Shown here piece after piece: positions 46,268-56,045 of a stretch of DNA of 64,000 bases. A program made the translations under genes and the position numbers. The DNA comes from an uncultured Desulfofustis sp. (GTDB lineage: Bacteria; Desulfobacterota; Desulfobulbia; Desulfobulbales; Desulfocapsaceae), in assembly GCA_905479735.1 (NCBI GenBank), contig CAJQNS010000072.1, positions 1-64,000 of the forward strand, written 5' to 3'. Each line of letters opens with the position of its first letter. Position 1 is the stretch's first letter. The notes below the pieces were generated by a model. That model did not search any database, was not told where the DNA came from, and saw only the letters and a program-made list of their open reading frames with translations.

Positions 46268-46502
46268 TTACAGCTGGTTTGATGTGCTGGAAAACAGTAT
46301 TTGAGGCGTTGGATCTGTCCTGGTTCCAACCACTCCTCTACATTGTCGTACCTCCTCTTTTCTTTGGTGATTTCAGACGTTTGATTGCTATTCATCAGAT
46401 TCTGTTTAAAAAACAATAAATTTTTCTTGAATTCGACTGGTCCGGGTGCTAGTTTTGTGCCTTCGTTTTACGTTATGCAACTTTTGCACAACTCGACCAG
46501 GT

Positions 46503-47006
46503 ATGAGTTCAACGATAATTTTTGGCTGTGGTAACACCCTCATGGGCGATGACGGTTTTGGCCCTGCAGTGGTTGACAAATTGAATGGTGGGGGCACCCT
46601 GCCCGATGGGGTTGAAGCCATCGATGCGATGACCGGTGTCCGTGAGTATTTGTTCGACTACCTGCTCAGCGAAGAAGGCCGCCCTGAGCATATTATTATT
46701 CTTGATGCGGTTGATTTTGAGGAACGGATTCCCGGTGAACTGTTCTGCATCGAATCCTCCTCGATCCCGGCCAAAAAAATCCATGACTTTTCCCTCCATC
46801 AGTTTCCCACGGTGAACCTTCTGCAGGAGTTGGAAGCACACACCTCCATCCGGGTAACCATACTGGCCGCCCAGGCCGAGTACATCCCGGCGGAGATCGA
46901 GCCGGGGCTCACGAAGTCGATGAAATCAGCCGTTACTAAGGCATGCGAGCAGATATTGCACATTGTTCAAAATCAGCAAAACGAGGTGACCATCAATGAT
47001 GTATGA
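46503..47006 (+). CDS. hydrogenase maturation protease (HycI/HyaD family)
   Basis: 167 aa. IIFGCGNTLMGDDGFGPAVV holds the family signature G-x-G-N-x-L-x-x-D-D-G with the metal-binding Asp; a second acid is in IILDAVDFEERIPGEL, and FSLHQFPTVNLLQEL gives the third ligand region (His). It removes the C-terminal peptide of the NiFe hydrogenase large subunit after metal insertion. The large subunit at 53049 has a 25-residue extension after U-x-x-C-x-x-H, a fitting substrate. It overlaps the next gene by 11 bp, so it heads the hydrogenase/Hdr operon. Confidence 0.92.
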   Translation: MSSTIIFGCGNTLMGDDGFGPAVVDKLNGGGTLPDGVEAIDAMTGVREYLFDYLLSEEGRPEHIIILDAVDFEERIPGELFCIESSSIPAKKIHDFSLHQFPTVNLLQELEAHTSIRVTILAAQAEYIPAEIEPGLTKSMKSAVTKACEQILHIVQNQQNEVTINDV

Positions 47007-48486
47007 GTTTAGAGTCAGCGAAATGGCTGAAGAATTTGGTGTTCATCGAAATACCATAAGGAACTGGATAAATTCCGGTACCCTTGCCGCCAAGGAAGGG
47101 CCCGGCCGCAAGTACCTTATGAAGTTCGAGGACTACCAGCTTCTGTGCGAAAAATTCGGGCGGCAGGCGCACATAAAACCATCGAGCTATGTGGATCCGG
47201 ATAAGGTTCGCAAGCTCGAGGAAGATGCTCACCGGCCAGAACCGATGGTGCTCGGTTTCACCGAGAAGACTATCTGTGCCGACACCAGTTGGGCCGATAC
47301 CTGTCTGACCTGCGGAACCTGTGCCAGCGCCTGCCCGATCGCCGGGGTTGATGGATTGGATCCCAGAAAAATAGTCAGGATGGCTGTGCTCGGACTCGAA
47401 GATGAACTCAAAGACACCAACTGGCCATGGAAGTGCACCATGTGCGCCAAGTGCGAAAATGCTTGTCCGGCCGGGGTTGAGATCATGGCGCTGATGCGGC
47501 GACTGCGTGGTCTCAGAGATCGCGACCTGGTACCGGGGCCGATTCACAAAGGTGTGGTAACCTGCCTGGAGCGGGGTAATAACTTAGGCATTCCCAAAGA
47601 CGACTTTGTCTTTCTCTGTGAGGAACTGGGGGAAGAACTCGAGGAAGAAGGACTTGAGGGCTTCAAGACCCCAGTCGATGTGGTCGGCGCCAAAGTTCTG
47701 GTGACGGTCAATTCCAAAGAGCCCTTCGCTGAACCGGACGATATGAAATACTGGTGGAGGATTTTCCACGCCGCCGGTGAGTCCTGGACCATTTCCTCGG
47801 AGAATTGGGAGGGGGTCAACTGGGGGTTGTTTTCCGGTGACGACGAATCCATGAAGACGGTGGTCGGGCGCATCGTCGATAATATGAGGCGCTTGAAATG
47901 CGAGGTGCTGCTCTTACCCGAGTGAGGCCACGCCTACTATGCAACCCGGGTCGGGTTGAACAAATGGTACCCAGAAGCGCTGAACGAATTCAAGATTGTC
48001 TCGGTCTTCGATCTGCTGATGGAATACGTCGAAGAGGGCCGCATCGAGCTTGATAACAGCAGGCATCAACTGCGTGCCACCTATCACGATCCCTGCAACT
48101 ACGGGCGCAAGTCCATGAAGGCCTTTGGCGTAGCCTATTACGAGGAAGGCCGGATCATTACCCAGAAATGCTGCACCGACTACAAGGAGATGGAGCCCAA
48201 TCGGGAAAGCAATTATTGCTGTGGCGCCGGCGGTGGTGCCTGGGCCATGCCGTTTGCCCCGGAACGGGTCTTCTACGGCCGCATCAAGGCCCGGCAGATC
48301 CAGGAGACCGGTGCTGAGCTGGTGATTGCCCCCTGTCACAACTGCAGGGACCAGATGATGAAATCTCTCAATCAGGAATACGATCTCGGTATTGAAGTAA
48401 AGTATCTCTGGGAACTCGTTGCCGACTCCCTGGTCCTCCCTGGTCAGAAGCAGAAAGAGATGGAAACCGAGGAGGCCGGTGAGTAA
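46996..48486 (+). CDS. selenoprotein: HTH-fused HdrD/DsrK/TmcB-like Fe-S oxidoreductase (Sec310)
   Basis: 496 aa when TGA 47923-47925 is read as selenocysteine. Residues about 5-55 (VSEMAEEFGVHRNTIRNWIN, GRKYLMKFEDYQLLCEKFG) form an excisionase/MerR-type helix-turn-helix. Two ferredoxin sites follow: CLTCGTCASACP (about 102-113) and CTMCAKCENACP (about 147-158). The Hdr-type cysteine-rich region has LLLPE-U-GHAYY, DPCNYGR, CCGAGGG (about 408) and CHNC (about 448). In DsrK/TmcB/HdrD-like proteins the U position is Cys (PECGHA). Homology continues without a break across the TGA and a hairpin lies just behind it. It probably passes electrons to a disulfide or DsrC-like substrate; that is inference. 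The HTH fusion is odd. Confidence 0.9.
47923..47958 (+). promoter_or_regulatory. putative bacterial SECIS of the HdrD-like gene
   Basis: TGA 47923-47925, then 22 nt to a loop GGGTC (47948-47952) closed by CAACCC/GGGTTG, a perfect 6-bp stem (47942-47958). The loop contains GGU, as in E. coli fdhF SECIS. Confidence 0.7.
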
Positions 48487-48566: not shown

Positions 48567-51500
48567 ATGCTGGATACGAAAAAAGTCGGGTCGGTGATGA
48601 TAGTCGGCGGCGGTATTACCGGTATGCAGGCAGCACTGGATATTGCCGATGCGGGCTATTACGTCTATCTGGTCGAAAGGTCCGGAGCCATCGGTGGAGC
48701 AATGGCCCAGTTGGATAAGACCTTTCCGACCAACGACTGCTCGATGTGAATCATCGCGCCAAAACTGGTTGAGTGCGGTCGGCACTTAAATATACAACTG
48801 ATGACCCTGAGCGAGGTTGCCGCTATCTCTGGAGAAGCAGGCAATTTCGAGGTTACCGTAAAAGAACATCCACGTTATGTGGATATGGAAAAGTGCATTG
48901 CCTGCGGAGAGTGTGCAGCCAAATGCCCGAAGAAAATCGACAGCGAGTATGATGCTGCCACCGGCAAGCGCAAGGCCATTTATGTCAAATACGCCCAGGC
49001 GGTACCGTTAAAGTATCAGATCGATGCCGACAGCTGCATCCGCTTCAGAAAAGCGGGAGCTTGCGGTTTCTGTGAAAAGGTCTGTCCGGCCGATGCCATC
49101 AATTTCGATGACACCGAAAAGATGCACAACCTCAACGTCGGGGCCATCGTCATGGCGCCCGGGTTCGAACCTTTCGATCCGGCCACGGCCGCTGTCTGGG
49201 GGTATGGCCGATATCCCAATGTCATAACCTCCCTGCAGTTCGAGCGTTACATGTCCGCCTCGGGCCCCACCGAGGGACATCTTATCCGCCCCTCTGACGG
49301 CAAGGAAATAACCAAGGTCGCTTTCCTGCAATGCGTCGGCTCGCGTGATGAAAATAAATGCGGCAACGGTTACTGCTCATCGGTTTGCTGTATGTATGCG
49401 ATCAAGGAAGCGGTGATGGCAAAGGATCATGTGCCGGGACTGCGTACCTCGATTTTCATGATGGACATGAGGACCCATGGCAAGGATTTCGACCGCTATT
49501 ATCAACGGGCCAAGGAAGAATCCGGCGTACGTTTCGTCCGCTGCCGGGTGCACGGGGTAGAACCGGAAGGCGGTAGCGGTGATCTGCGCCTGCACTATAT
49601 CAATGAAGAGGGACGTCAGGTGGAGGAGTATTTCGACCTGGTGGTGCTCTCTGTTGGTCTGCAGATTCCCGAGCACGTCAAAAAACTCAGCAGTATGGCC
49701 GGAGTCAGACTGACCAGCGACAGCTTCGCCGCCACCTCTGACTTTTCTCCGGTGTCGACTTCCAAGAAGGGGATCTTCACCTGCGGGGCGTTTGCCGGTC
49801 CCAAGGATATTCCCCAGTCGGTACTCGAAGGGTCCGCCGCTGCCGCCGCCGTTGCCGATATACTGGCCCCCGCGCGTGGAGAACTGACCCAGGAAAAGAG
49901 TTTCCCGGAAGAACGTGAGATTGGCAGTGAAGATCCCCGGGTGGGCGTTTTTGTCTGTCATTGCGGTTCAAATATTGCCGGAGTCGTCGATGTCGAAGCG
50001 GTTGCCGATTACGCCCAGGAACTGCCGGGAGTTGTCCACGTGGAGCGAAATCTGTTCAGCTGCTCCCAGGACACCCAGGAGCAGATGATCCAGACCATCA
50101 AAGAAAAAGGGCTGAACCGGGTGGTGGTCGCCGCCTGTACACCACGAACCCATGAACCGCTGTTTCGGGAGACCCTGAAATCGGCGGGCTTGAATGAATA
50201 TCTGGTGGAAATGGCCAACGTCAGGAACCAGAATTCCTGGGTCCATGCGGCCACCCCGGATACCGCCACTCTCAAGGCCAAGGATCTGGTGCGGATGGCG
50301 GTGGCCAAAGTGGCCAGACAGTTTTCACTGCAGCCTATCTCGGTGCCGATCAAACAGAAGGGTCTGGTGGTTGGCGGTGGCATCGCCGGCATGACCTCGG
50401 CGCTGAATCTGGCCGAGCAGGGCTTCGAAGTGCATCTCGTCGAAAAGACTCAGGCGCTGGGCGGCAATGCCATCTTTCTGGGCCATACCTGGTCCGGTGA
50501 AGCGATCTCTGCCCGGACTGTCAAGATCATCGAGGAAGTCGCCAAAAATGAAAAAATCATCCTTCATACCGGATTTGAAGTAACCGCTGCCGAGGGGTTT
50601 GTCGGCAACTTCCGCTCCACCATCGGCACCAAAGACGGCCTGACCAAGACCATCGATCACGGCATTGGTATCGTAGCCACCGGCGGTCAGCCGCTGCGTC
50701 CCAAGGAGTATGGCTACGGGCGAATCCCCAATGTGGTCACCTCCCTGGAATTCGATCGGCTCTTCAAACTCAAGGAACAGCACGCGGTCAAAGCAAAGTC
50801 GATTGTCTTTATCCAGTGTGTCGGTTCCCGTGAGAAGGAGAGGATGTATTGTTCGAAGGTGTGCTGCACCCATTCGGTACAGACCGCCATCGACCTCAAA
50901 CAGGAAGATCCGAACAGGATGATATATATTCTCTACCGCGACATGCGAACCTACGGTCAGCGGGAGGCGTTGTATAAAAAAGCACGTCAACTCGGCGTCA
51001 TCTTCATCAACTACGAGCTGCACGGTAAACCAGAGGTAGACGTCAAGCACAAAAAAGCGCTCATCGAGGTCTGGGACCATGTCCTGCATCGTCCGCTGGC
51101 AATAGAGGCCGACATGGTGGTGCTGGCTACCGCCATCGTGGCTAATCCGGACAGTGATAAACTCCACAAGCTCTATAAGGTGTCAGTTGATGGTGACGGC
51201 TTTTTTCAGGAAGCGCATGCCAAGCTGCGACCCGTTGATTTTGCCACCGACGGCATGTTCGTTGCCGGCTTGGCCCACTATCCGAAACCGGTGGAGGAAT
51301 CGGTCGCCCAGGCCCTGGCTGCTTCGGCCCGGGCGGCGACCCTGCTGTCGAGGTCCGAGGTCAGCCTTGATGCGGTCAAGGCGGAACCCGATCTCGACTA
51401 TTGTGATGGCTGTGCTCTGTGCCTGGACGTCTGTCCCTATCACGCTATAACCCTGGTTGAGGAGAGTGGCGATGAGGGCCGGATTTCTAAATATATCACG

Positions 51501-51626
51501 GTCAACAAGGCGCAATGCAAGGGCTGCGGACTGTGCCAGGGAACCTGTCCAAAACGTGGTGTCGTCGTACAGGGTTTTACGATGGATCAGATCAGCGCTC
51601 AGATTGAAGCGGCGCTGGTCGTCTGA
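48567..51626 (+). CDS. hdrA: selenoprotein HdrA, double-module (Sec61)
   Basis: 1019 aa reading TGA 48747-48749 as Sec. Module 1: [20 protein letters not shown] (FAD site), [18 protein letters not shown], where HdrA has Cys or Sec, ferredoxin sites near residues 110 ([12 protein letters not shown]) and 157 (CGFCEKVCP), and [11 protein letters not shown] with a CC cluster. Module 2 begins about residue 460 ([12 protein letters not shown]), with a second FAD site [20 protein letters not shown] (about 598), [12 protein letters not shown], and two C-terminal ferredoxin sites [12 protein letters not shown] and [12 protein letters not shown]. HdrA is the flavin electron-bifurcating hub of Hdr-Mvh complexes. 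ATG 48567 follows AGAGGAGA. It receives electrons through MvhD. Confidence 0.93.
48747..48786 (+). promoter_or_regulatory. putative bacterial SECIS of hdrA
   Basis: After TGA 48747-48749 a 5-bp stem AGTGC/GCACT (48772-48786) closes the loop GGTCG at 48777-48781. The loop starts 27 nt after the TGA, farther than in the other three. Confidence 0.6.
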
Positions 51627-51674: not shown

Positions 51675-52091
51675 ATGAATTTTGAACCCAAAATCATTGC
51701 ATTCTGCTGCAACTGGTGCTCCTATGCCGCCGCCGACCTGGCCGGTACTTCGAGGATGCAGTACCCGCCCAACGTCAGAATCATCAGGGTTATGTGTTCG
51801 GGCATGGTGCATCCGGAGTTTATAACCAAGGCCCTGGACCAGGGGGCCGACGGCGTCATGGTTCTGGGCTGACACCTGGGTGAATGTCATTACCTGGATG
51901 GTAATTATAAAGCACTGTCGCGTTCAGATATGATCGTCGAGTTGCTGGAAGACTACGGCTATGAACCAGAACGATTTGCCATAACCTGGGTATCGTCGGC
52001 CGAACCCGATAAATTCGTCAAGGCCGTCACTCAGATGACCGAGAAGATCAAGAAACTCGGTCCCATTCAGGACCAGGCTCAAGCCGTATAG
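51675..52091 (+). CDS. mvhD: selenoprotein MvhD, hydrogenase-Hdr linking subunit (Sec66)
   Basis: 138 aa across TGA 51870-51872. [20 protein letters not shown] supplies Cys for the iron-sulfur cluster; [11 protein letters not shown] follows; then [19 protein letters not shown], where methanogen MvhD has GCHPGDCHY. Sec at this site is known in VhuD. The small protein carries a [2Fe-2S] cluster and passes electrons from the hydrogenase to HdrA. ATG 51675 follows AGAGGAA, 48 bp after hdrA. Without read-through only 65 residues would be made, lacking most ligands. Confidence 0.93.
51870..51905 (+). promoter_or_regulatory. putative bacterial SECIS of mvhD
   Basis: TGA 51870-51872, then 22 nt to a loop TGGAT (51895-51899) closed by ATTACC/GGTAAT (51889-51905), a perfect 6-bp stem. 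The same loop occurs behind the mvhA TGA. Confidence 0.7.
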
Positions 52092-52102: not shown

Positions 52103-53047
52103 ATGGGAGTTACGACTGCTTTAGAATGGCTGAGTTCCTGCTCCGGATGCGAGATAGCCATCCTCAATATAGGAGAGGATCTGGTAGAGCTGCTGACCGA
52201 GCATCTTGACATCGTCCATGCCCCGGTCATCATGGATCATAAATATTTCGGCCAATGCGGGGATGAAGGTACGGAGTTGGAGATCCCCGAAGCGGCAGTC
52301 GGTATCGTTACCGGAGGTGTGTCGAACGAGGAACACCTCGAAGTGCTCGAGGAAATGCGCAAGAAATGCAAGATCCTGATTGCTCTCGGTTCATGCGCCA
52401 CCCAAGGCGGCATCCCGGCCCTGATGAATGGTCAGGATTCGGCCCGAAGTTTCGACGAGATTTATCAGACCCCGTCGACTGATGAAGGGGCGACGCGGCC
52501 GGACCAGGGTGTTCCCGATCTGCTTGATCGCACCTACGCTCTCGATGAGAAGGTCAAGATCGACTTGATGCTCCCCGGCTGCCCGCCGAATCCGGCCCAT
52601 ATCGCCGAACTGATCACCGCTCTGCTCGAGGACAGAGAGCCTGACTTGCCGACCAAGAGTGTCTGCGACAGCTGTCCCACCAGAAGGGAAGGCAAGGGCA
52701 GTGTGTCCACGGTCAAGCGCTATACCGAGAATGCGGAGTTCGACCCGGAGAAACCGGTCGGCGAAATGCGCTGTCTGCTCGAACAGGGGTTCATGTGCAT
52801 GGGGCCGGTCACCGCCGCCGGTTGTGCCAAGCGCGGCGCCCCGAGCTGCATCGAGGCCCGGGTTCCGTGCCGCGGCTGTTTTGGTTCGGTTATGCCGAAA
52901 GGCAACCAGATGCTTGATATGATGAATGCGCTGGCCAGCAACGGCATCGATTTTAAATCTGTGGTGGATCGCCGGTCCATGCTGAGGTTCAGCGGCGCCC
53001 ATGGTAATCTGCGGCCCCCACGCAAGGTCGCTGTGAAGGAGGAATAA
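52103..53047 (+). CDS. mvhG: F420-non-reducing hydrogenase small subunit MvhG
   Basis: 314 aa, no Tat or Sec signal, so cytoplasmic as in group 3c hydrogenases. The proximal cluster site is EWLSSCSGCEIAILNI, followed by GIVTGGVSNEEHLEVLEEM, LIALGSCATQGGIPALMNG and LPGCPPNPAHIAELI. The C-terminal half holds FMCMGPVTAAGCAKRGAPSC and RVPCRGCFGSV, ligands of the medial and distal clusters. It takes electrons from the active site in MvhA and hands them to MvhD. ATG 52103 follows AGGAGG; it ends 1 bp before mvhA. Confidence 0.95.
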   Translation: MGVTTALEWLSSCSGCEIAILNIGEDLVELLTEHLDIVHAPVIMDHKYFGQCGDEGTELEIPEAAVGIVTGGVSNEEHLEVLEEMRKKCKILIALGSCATQGGIPALMNGQDSARSFDEIYQTPSTDEGATRPDQGVPDLLDRTYALDEKVKIDLMLPGCPPNPAHIAELITALLEDREPDLPTKSVCDSCPTRREGKGSVSTVKRYTENAEFDPEKPVGEMRCLLEQGFMCMGPVTAAGCAKRGAPSCIEARVPCRGCFGSVMPKGNQMLDMMNALASNGIDFKSVVDRRSMLRFSGAHGNLRPPRKVAVKEE

Positions 53048-53048
53048 G

Positions 53049-54497
53049 ATGGGTAAGGTATTGCAAATTCAACCGGTTACCCGAATCGAGGGACATGCCC
53101 GAATCTCGGTGCATCTCAGCGACGACGGTAACGTCGAGGACGCCTACATGAGCCTGATGTCTCTGCGCGGCTTCGAAAAATTCATAGAGGGGCGGCCCGC
53201 CGAAGAGGTGCCCCGGATCGTCAACCGGATATGCGGGATCTGTCCGTGGATGCATCACACCGCCTCCAATAAAGCAGTTGACGGCTGCTTCGGTGTGACG
53301 CCGACACCGACCGGCCATAAGCTTCGGGAACTGCTACAGGTGATGGCACACATCAATGACAAGATCCTCCATTTCTTTTTCCTGGCGGCTCCCGATTTTG
53401 TGCTGGGTCCCGATGCCGACTACTCGGTGAGAAATGTGATCGGGGTCGTCAAGGCTGCCCCGGAACTGGCTTCGAAGGTCGTCAAGATGCGCCAGCTCGG
53501 TCAGATGATGATCGACCGCTTTGCCGGAAAGGCGATTCATCCGATCGCCGCGGTCGTCGGCGGCTTCTCCAAACCGATGCTCGAGGCGGAGCGTCAGGAG
53601 TTGCTCAATGATACCCGGACATTGCTGGATTTCTCTCAGTATGCGCTCGAGTTCGCCAAGGAGAACGTGTTCAGCAAATACATGGACGTAATCGGCGAGC
53701 TCGGCGTGATCACCACCGGCTTCCTCGGCACCGTCGATCGTGCGGACGGCTCCTTCAGAATATATGACGGTACACAGCGTCTGATGAAGGCCGACGGCAG
53801 CTACGTCGACTTCGAGGGGGAGGATTATCTCGATTTCCTCGGCGAACATGTCGAGCCGTGGGGCTACGGTAAGATGCCTTATGCCAAGTCCTGGGATGAA
53901 GGGTTCTCCCTGAACCTGGATGAGCCCAAAGGCATCTATCGGGCTAACACGCTGGCCAGACTCAACGTCTGCGAACAGATGTCCACCCCCAAGGCTCAGG
54001 CAGCCTTGGAGGAGTTCCGGCAAGCTTTCGGCCGCCCGGCTCAGGCAACCCTGCTCTATCACTATGCCCGCCTGATCGAGCTGGTGTACGCCTGTGAGCG
54101 GACCATCGAACTGCTCGAGTGGGACGGCATTACCGACACCGATGTGCGAGCCAAGGTGAATCCTGGGGCCGGTCGGGGCGTCGGAGTGGTCGAGGCGCCT
54201 CGCGGCACGCTGATCCATGATTATACCACCGATGCCAACGGCTGTATCGAATCTGCCAATCTCATCGTCGGTACTACCCACAATATCGGGCCGATGAATA
54301 TGAGCGTCAAACAGGCCGCTACCTCACTCATTAAGGATGGTGTCTACGATCAGGGGATACTCAACAAGGTGGAGATGGCCGTCAGGGCCTATGACCCGTG
54401 AATGTCCTGCGCTACCCACCGCCTGGATGGCGGAATCCCCCTGGCTTTGGAAATCATCGACTCGGAAGGAAAACTGGTTGAGACGATAACCAATTGA
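53049..54497 (+). CDS. mvhA: selenoprotein MvhA, [NiFeSe] hydrogenase large subunit (Sec451)
   Basis: 482 aa across TGA 54399-54401. N-terminal metal ligands sit in RIVNRICGICPWMHH (C-x-x-C); the C-terminal pair is DP-U-MSCATH, in which Sec451 replaces the first Cys of D-P-C-x-x-C-x-x-H, as in [NiFeSe] hydrogenases and VhuU. After His457 a 25-residue tail (RLDGGIPLALEIIDSEGKLV...) is expected to be removed by the protease encoded at 46503. H2 oxidation at the Ni-Fe site feeds MvhG. ATG 53049 follows AAGGAGGAA; homology continues without interruption over the TGA. Confidence 0.95.
54399..54433 (+). promoter_or_regulatory. putative bacterial SECIS of mvhA
   Basis: TGA 54399-54401, then 22 nt to a loop TGGAT (54424-54428) closed by CCGCC/GGCGG (54419-54433). 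Same spacing and loop as mvhD. Confidence 0.7.
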
Positions 54498-54953: not shown

Positions 54954-56045
54954 ATGGCAAGTCCTCAAAACCTGAGTGAACTGCAATTTCCGATAGCCCT
55001 TGTGGATGAACTCCACGAACTGGTGGATCGGCCGATCCGGGTGATGGTGATCTGCGGCACTCAGACCCGAGCGCTGTTGAAGTACAGTGATGAGGATATC
55101 CTGCCGGAGGATCTCGAAATCGTTACCGGTCCCGGTTGTTCAATCTGTGTCATGCCGGCTGGACATATTGACGCTTTCGTGAAAATTGGCAGGCAACCGG
55201 ATGTCATCACCGCCACCTGCGAGGATTTGCTGCGGGTTCAAGGTACCAAGGAATCGCTGGGGACCATAAAAGAGAAGGGAGCTCTGGTCGAGGTTGTCGA
55301 CTCGCCAATGGAAGCGCTGGATCTGGCGCGTAAAAATCCTGGGAAAATAGTGGTCTTTACAGCGGTCGGCTTTGAGGGAGCGGCGCCGGATGTGGCTGAG
55401 ACCATCCTCGAGGCGGCCTCGGAAGGGATAGACAATTTCTGCGTAATTCCATCCATCAGACTGCTGCCCCCGTCGCTCGACTCTCTGATGAGCGACCCCG
55501 AGCTCAATATCAGAGGGCTCCTCTGCTCCGCCCATATTCAGAGTATCACAGACAGTCAGGCCTATGCCGACCTGGCCAGGCAGCACCACCTCTCCTGTGC
55601 CGTTGTAGGTTTCGGCATCAGAGACATTCTCGAAGGCCTGATTTCCATCGTAAAGCAGATCAGATCTGAAAAACCGGTTACCACCAACCCATTCAACGGT
55701 GTAGTCCAGACCGAGGAAACGATCCGCAACAGCAGAATGATGTCGGAAGTGTTTTTTGCGGTGGAGACTGACTGGCGAGGGCTCGGCTCTATTGAAGGCA
55801 GTGGGTTCGTGATCAGAGATGAACTTTCGATCTATGATGCCATCAAGCGATTTAACGTCAGATTTATAAAGGGACAAGAGGAAATTAAGTGCCAGTGTGC
55901 CGACGTCCTCTCCGGACGCCTCACTCCAGATGAATGTCCCTCATTCGGTATTTCCTGCACCTCAAAGCATCCGATCGGGCCCTGCATGGTCGCCCAGGAA
56001 GGACTCTGCGCCTCATATTTCCGGCACATCTTCGGCAGATTTTAG
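54954..56045 (+). CDS. hypD: hydrogenase formation protein HypD
   Basis: 363 aa, full length. The signatures are VMVICGTQTRALLKY (C-G-T-H-like motif, here Cys-Gly-Thr-Gln), VTGPGCSICVMPAGHIDAFV (G-P-G-C-x-x-C) and VFTAVGFEGAAPDVAETI. The C-terminal Fe-S site is built from KCQCADVLSGRLTPDECPSF with FGISCTSKHPIGPCMVAQEG. HypD assembles the Fe(CN)2CO unit with HypC and HypE. The common motif C-G-[TS]-H has Q here. ATG 54954 follows GAGGTG. It is the only hyp gene in the window, at the end of the hydrogenase cluster. Confidence 0.95.
   Translation: MASPQNLSELQFPIALVDELHELVDRPIRVMVICGTQTRALLKYSDEDILPEDLEIVTGPGCSICVMPAGHIDAFVKIGRQPDVITATCEDLLRVQGTKESLGTIKEKGALVEVVDSPMEALDLARKNPGKIVVFTAVGFEGAAPDVAETILEAASEGIDNFCVIPSIRLLPPSLDSLMSDPELNIRGLLCSAHIQSITDSQAYADLARQHHLSCAVVGFGIRDILEGLISIVKQIRSEKPVTTNPFNGVVQTEETIRNSRMMSEVFFAVETDWRGLGSIEGSGFVIRDELSIYDAIKRFNVRFIKGQEEIKCQCADVLSGRLTPDECPSFGISCTSKHPIGPCMVAQEGLCASYFRHIFGRF

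Follow-up and report, generated by a model that had tools for sequence, protein, structure and literature searches.

A selenocysteine-containing HdrD-like subunit with a BldC-like winged helix-turn-helix domain and a putative cognate operator in hydrogenase operons of Desulfobacterota

Described systems and the operon in Desulfofustis

Zhang et al. (2006) have described a selenoprotein operon, glpC-hdrA-frhD-frhG-frhA, in Syntrophobacter fumaroxidans and Desulfotalea psychrophila (PMC1794560), and the five-gene operon is also named in a 2026 review (PMC13188914). In a separate field, studies of the Streptomyces regulator BldC have revealed that each protomer binds one 9-bp direct repeat, with the recognition helix in the major groove and the wing in the minor groove, and that the repeats are bound head-to-tail using only the winged helix-turn-helix (wHTH) of the protein (PMC5859096).

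The window analyzed here is a stretch of 64,000 nucleotides from contig CAJQNS010000072.1 of an uncultured Desulfofustis sp. (GCA_905479735.1). It contains, on the forward strand, an operon in the order hycI, HTH-hdrD, hdrA, mvhD, mvhG and mvhA, followed by hypD. The first gene (46503–47006) encodes a hycI/frhD-like hydrogenase maturation protease (TIGR00072, 4.4e-34; HycI, 1.4e-19), and its end overlaps the start of the gene for HTH-HdrD (46996–48486). The hdrA gene (48567–51626) encodes a tandem HdrA (NF040770 HdrA2, 2.6e-297) with selenocysteine (Sec) 61 in NDCSMUIIAPK, and its stop is most likely the TGA at 51624–51626. It is followed by the mvhD/frhD delta subunit (51675–52091; FlpD, 8.6e-57) with Sec66 in VLGUHLG, the small hydrogenase subunit mvhG (52103–53047; VhuG, 2.6e-61) and the large hydrogenase subunit mvhA (53049–54497; NiFeSe_Hases, 1.9e-29), in which the TGA in RAYDPUMSCATH is read as Sec. 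The table-11 reading frame of mvhA ending at 54401 is too short and lacks the C-terminal maturation tail, which read-through of the TGA restores. The hydrogenase maturation gene hypD (54954–56045; HypD, 5.7e-111) lies 3' of the operon. Four operon genes, those for HTH-HdrD, HdrA, MvhD and MvhA, carry an in-frame TGA at a typical Sec site, and the Hdr-Mvh gene set is complete in one operon, with hdrA (FAD), mvhD, mvhG and mvhA beside the HdrD partner.

The operon matches the description of the Sec-containing 'GlpC' five-gene operon, several genes of which encode selenoproteins (PMC1794560). It shares with that operon the gene order and a Sec-containing Fe-S subunit encoded beside hdrA and Mvh/Frh-type hydrogenase genes and, on that description, the window gene encodes 'GlpC', the selenoprotein of the known Hdr-Mvh operon. 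Unlike the present account, the available part of Zhang et al. describes no HTH, operator or regulation; this comparison is with the published description rather than with the sequences of those genomes. The accessible operon descriptions in PMC1794560 and PMC13188914 make no mention of an HTH on 'GlpC'. The first-pass annotation had put the protein forward as the strongest candidate for something not described; the selenoprotein gene and its operon have been known since 2006. The selenoprotein, the operon and BldC-type binding are already known. An HTH on a heterodisulfide reductase together with a direct repeat had no match in the literature searched, which covered only a minority of subscription papers, and the same search returned no Hdr-type subunit that carries a BldC-like domain and has a putative cognate operator.

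Domains, fold and distribution of HTH-HdrD

With TGA read as Sec, positions 46996–48486 form an open frame of 496 residues comprising a wHTH, two [4Fe-4S] motifs, a degenerate CCG domain and a canonical CCG domain. The wHTH occupies residues 1–56 (46996–47163), and Pfam HTH_17 matches residues 6–46 (2.5e-8; 34.5 bits against a cut-off of 27). Residues 100–161 form a 4Fe-4S dicluster domain (Fer4_8, 2.2e-11), the in-frame TGA at 47923–47925 places Sec310 in the degenerate CCG domain within LLPEUGHAY, and residues 362–453 are the canonical CCG domain (PF02754, 4.4e-10). Its cysteines C367...C408 C409...C447xxC450 are invariant in the alignment and match the CX31-39CCX35-36CXXC type, with spacings of 40 and 37 that slightly exceed the textbook pattern. 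Two [4Fe-4S] motifs followed by CCG domains with PE(C/U)GHA are shared with HdrD, DsrK, HmcF and TmcB. Unlike these proteins, HTH-HdrD carries the N-terminal wHTH and scores far under the curated cut-offs (HmcF, 221 of 750 bits; TmcB, 189 of 735; DsrK, 164 of 400). The motif PE(C/U)GHAY itself is not invariant, with Thr in place of Sec/Cys in L048 (LLPETGHAY) and Leu in place of Glu in L096 and L097 (LLPLUGHAY).

The start MMYEF is conserved among relatives, and in comparisons of the first 58 codons of the window gene with those of 10 Desulfofustis relatives the changes fall mostly in third positions (e.g., 4/3/27), which indicates that the HTH is translated. Judged by these two sequence features, the start codon as annotated is right. 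Two AlphaFold2 models, one of the whole protein and one of the first 61 residues, both give a winged HTH with a strand at 2–5, helices at 7–14 and 18–27, wing strands and a helix at 44–53 (pLDDT about 84–91 over the fold; 86 for the AF2 model). The first-pass annotation had read the first ~55 residues as an HTH fused to a Sec-containing HdrD/DsrK-like Fe-S protein. Pfam domains and structure prediction bear this reading out, and a start downstream of the HTH and an N-terminal part of another fold, either of which would have undone it, are both contradicted by these data.

The closest solved fold is BldC (6amk_B, Z 6.2, rmsd 2.2 over 51 residues; 6ama_A, Z 6.0), and other MerR/Xis folds lie about 1 Z below; a sequence search of the PDB with the HTH alone returned weak matches only. 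HTH-HdrD and Streptomyces BldC (PMC5859096) have in common the wHTH fold, 9-bp direct repeats, the missing MerR coiled coil and the recognition-helix Thr and Trp (T20 and W24 here; T27 and W31 in BldC). They differ in that the base-contacting Lys26 and Arg30 of BldC are Asn19 and Asn23 here when aligned on Thr27/Trp31, in the repeat, YGCACAA here vs CAATTCGGA in BldC (PMC5859096), and in that BldC is a stand-alone protein of 68 residues whereas the present domain is joined to Fe-S and CCG domains that together span about 430 residues. The HTH is a BldC-like domain and not a member of the stand-alone BldC family. Its recognition helix, HRNTIRNW (residues 17–24), shows a mean pairwise identity of 94% vs 50% for the remaining HTH. 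In the last HTH helix, Cys51 and Gly55 are invariant in 28 of 28 aligned domains and may contact the Fe-S part; from this conservation, Cys51 is a possible candidate for a redox switch.

Sec310 is in all likelihood real, because orthologues without the in-frame TGA (e.g., L034 and L041) carry Cys at this position and the source genome contains a tRNA-Sec (75 bits vs a cut-off of 47). The selB gene was found only in part, and a bacterial SECIS for codon 310 was not demonstrable, the hairpin 3' of the TGA having a non-significant z of -1.67. Sec is not specific to the HTH form, as Cys versions retain the HTH and Sec is also present in the HTH-less sister clade. In some genomes a Sec and a Cys version of the operon occur together, both with HTH (L032/L040 and L026/L041). 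L040 and L041 are Cys-type HTH-HdrD-HdrA-MvhD operons without hycI or mvhGA that occur beside a Sec-type hydrogenase operon, and their recognition helix is the same as that of the Sec-type operon of the same genome.

Orthologues from several families and orders of Desulfobacterota mostly retain the HTH. Most of 47 relatives taken from GTDB contigs have it, and GVHRNTIRNW is nearly unchanged from Desulfobulbales to Syntrophobacteraceae and Desulfarculaceae. A scan of 297 Desulfobacterota genomes recovered the full HTH form from 13 and the HTH-less form from many more, and 87 of 243 Desulfobulbales genomes have a match, most of them with HTH; the HTH-HdrD architecture is not a one-off. In a tree built without the HTH, 14 HTH-less rows group in a single clade (100/100), and one nested loss, L105, falls within the HTH clade beside L051 (100/100). 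L047 appears HTH-less in the tree only since its contig begins inside the gene; it was left out of the count of losses together with L049 (contig edge) and L167 (apparent frameshift). The HTH form lies almost always directly 5' of hdrA-mvhD, usually with hycI and mvhGA, whereas the HTH-less form is mostly apart from hdrA, and the HTH-less sister clade lies outside the glpC-hdrA-frhD-frhG-frhA operon. The earlier remark that DsrK/TmcB/HdrD relatives normally lack a DNA-binding domain agrees with this close sister clade.

A putative operator of 9-bp direct repeats

Relatives share a conserved block 5' of hycI. In the window, the putative operator is TGCAACT-TT-TGCACAA-CT-CGACCAG (46476–46500, forward strand), three direct repeats spaced by 9 bp, of which one is good and two are degenerate; alone it would not stand out, and the case for it is comparative. 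The Desulfobulbaceae counterpart is GGCACTG-TT-TGCACAA-TG-CGACCAA. The window repeat lies at about +15 of the transcription start predicted from a putative sigma-70 promoter, TTGAAT - 17 bp - TAGTTT (46427–46455, forward strand). This promoter has aligned counterparts, TTGAAyT ... TGnTAG in Desulfofustis relatives and TTGACA-N17-TAnnnT in distant families. Across families, the operator consists of YGCACAA-N2-YGCACAA direct repeats with a period of 9, in two to four copies, and in many families it is placed just 3' of TTGACA-N17-TAnnnT promoters. In Desulfobulbaceae and Desulfofustis the repeat lies in the 5' leader, near or overlapping the hycI start; in other families it is found 36–210 bp 5' of the first start codon, still just after the promoter. 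It precedes the HTH gene even where hycI is missing (L092, L095–L097). In L038, L087 and L034, the opposite strand carries another 9-bp direct repeat some 90–125 bp upstream of the main operator (90–175 bp upstream of hycI), as if for looping or a divergent promoter.

In a uniform test of the 900 bp upstream of HdrD, with a threshold of 13/14 or better, the repeat was present in 10 of 14 distant discovery HTH loci and 12 of 19 held-out HTH loci, counts that come from related species and are therefore not independent events, for a motif defined on part of the clade. The same test gave none in 15 HTH-less HdrD loci and none in 2264 random windows. Of 33 HTH loci, 22 reached the threshold at period 9, and no other period between 7 and 21 did so in more than two. 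When whole loci were scanned at 13/14 or better, matches fell almost only on operon promoters of HTH loci, with one off-target (L012) and none in the 12 HTH-less loci L099–L110. When single loci were shuffled, p did not exceed 0.01 for 13 of the 14 distant loci; L051 failed owing to an 18-bp distance between its two good repeats. An inverted-repeat reading, TGCAA-n3-TTGCA, drawn from Desulfofustis alone was rejected, as distant loci show period-9 direct repeats. The site of Rex-type regulators is TTGTGAAnnnnTTCACAA. A Rex-type site was likewise rejected as the identity of the operator; its left half does not fit.

Copies of the site in trans were found in several genomes. In G162 and G187, the gene for HTH-HdrD is accompanied by hdrA-mvhD alone, and a second operon, hycI-hdrA-mvhD-mvhG-mvhA without HdrD (L117 and L116), has an array of three to four repeats just 5' of hycI. 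In G211, AGCACAATTTGCACAAAATGCACAA lies 5' of an hdrA-mvh operon (L112), and in G281 two sites lie 5' of another hdrA-mvhDGA operon (L118). G089 has an exact site after the promoter of hynBA, which encodes a periplasmic [NiFe] hydrogenase; this hyn site is missing in G118 of the same genus. Matches with one mismatch numbered 80 for the pattern vs 40 for the reversed pattern, and those examined were mostly intragenic and chance-like. Regulon candidates inside genes (L119, L120, L121, L124 and, in the source genome, L182–L184) were rejected as chance matches in coding sequence. The exact 16-mer of the window operator occurs once in its own genome. An apparently intergenic sequence resembling a triple repeat, TGCTCGA-TT-TGCACAA-TA-CGAACAA, is also present there (L185:2473; C247:19472, minus strand).

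Regulatory reading and alternatives

The reading preferred here, with a probability of about three in four, is that HTH-HdrD is an Hdr-type subunit of an HdrA-MvhDGA hydrogenase that also regulates its own complex via the putative 9-bp-repeat operator. The fusion, the fold class, the putative operator, its co-occurrence with the HTH and the sites in trans come from sequence comparison; DNA binding, the sign of the regulation and the signal are what we infer. The protein would be the electron-accepting subunit of a cytoplasmic, presumably electron-bifurcating complex, and its wHTH would bind YGCACAA-N2 repeats head-to-tail in two to four copies. A head-to-tail oligomer on DNA is suggested by the solved complexes of BldC. 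The repeats sit at about +1 to +35 of the operon promoter, where binding would most likely repress, and in some lineages HTH-HdrD may act in trans on other hydrogenase operons. The signal is probably the enzyme's own state: a free, unassembled or oxidized subunit would bind DNA, and a subunit that is reduced or assembled with HdrA/Mvh would leave it and release the operon. The broader proposal, in which the complex uses HdrD to sense whether it is assembled or in which redox state it is, forms cooperative arrays on 9-bp repeats and exerts BldC-type control over a small hydrogenase regulon, has about even chances of being right.

The first-pass annotation had left the choice between a regulator and a docking module. 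In the docking version, the HTH contacts HdrA or Mvh and binds no DNA, and the repeat belongs to an unlinked transcription factor. The position of the HTH form directly 5' of hdrA-mvhD, with the HTH-less form mostly elsewhere, would suit such a role, and wHTH folds also make protein contacts, CbpM being among the weak structural matches. The repeat, however, follows the HTH and not the operon. In L105 the HTH is lost and the operator is absent even though hdrA-mvhD-mvhG remain; a second copy in the same genome (G255), L090, has the HTH and a perfect operator. The repeat is also lost or degenerate where the helix has changed: L042/L132, with TQTVIKNW, have no site, and the site of L169, whose helix reads RRNTIRDW, is degenerate, in contrast to the good one of L170, a paralogue from the same genome with the normal helix. 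The repeat is present where MvhGA and HycI are missing, and the strongest constraint falls on the helix that would face DNA. The pairing with the HTH is further favored because BldC binds 9-bp direct repeats, matching the observed period. L040/L181 have a normal helix, yet no recognizable site was found upstream, and sites are weak in some Desulfobulbaceae (L145, L156 and L160). A DNA-binding regulator is well supported by the putative operator, because of its position and its covariation with the helix, and docking alone is an unlikely explanation of these sequence patterns.

Equally doubtful is a variant in which the same DNA-binding regulator activates transcription, or senses selenium through termination at TGA 310, leaving a repressing fragment of HTH and ferredoxin domains. 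Such termination would spare the HTH, the operon encodes four selenoproteins, and the HTH is borne by both the Sec and the Cys operon versions that share some genomes. HTH and operator are nevertheless both retained in Cys-only members (much of family f2), which excludes selenium as the general signal; termination at codon 310 is conceivable in Sec members only. A site just after the -10 element favors repression over activation. That the conserved repeat is an RNA element or a translation signal of hycI, as its place in the leader of Desulfobulbaceae and Desulfofustis might suggest, is highly improbable, since elsewhere it keeps to the promoter at a distance from the start codon and precedes genes other than hycI, including hynB in G089.

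Trigger enzymes such as PutA and BirA are enzymes that carry a DNA-binding domain. By analogy, HTH-HdrD would be expected to regulate its own operon. It differs from them in belonging, as one subunit, to a presumably bifurcating hydrogenase made up of several proteins and in having a BldC-type domain rather than an RHH or BirA-type HTH. If the preferred reading is true, a flavin/Fe-S hydrogenase complex would join the self-regulating enzymes, and the recognition of direct repeats known from BldC would extend to a domain of a metabolic enzyme. Hydrogenase switching in sulfate reducers and syntrophs is poorly known, and the present loci offer an enzyme subunit, a putative operator and a short list of targets. 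Overall, a BldC-type regulator inside an electron-transfer enzyme would, if the reading holds, govern a small hydrogenase regulon in these organisms.
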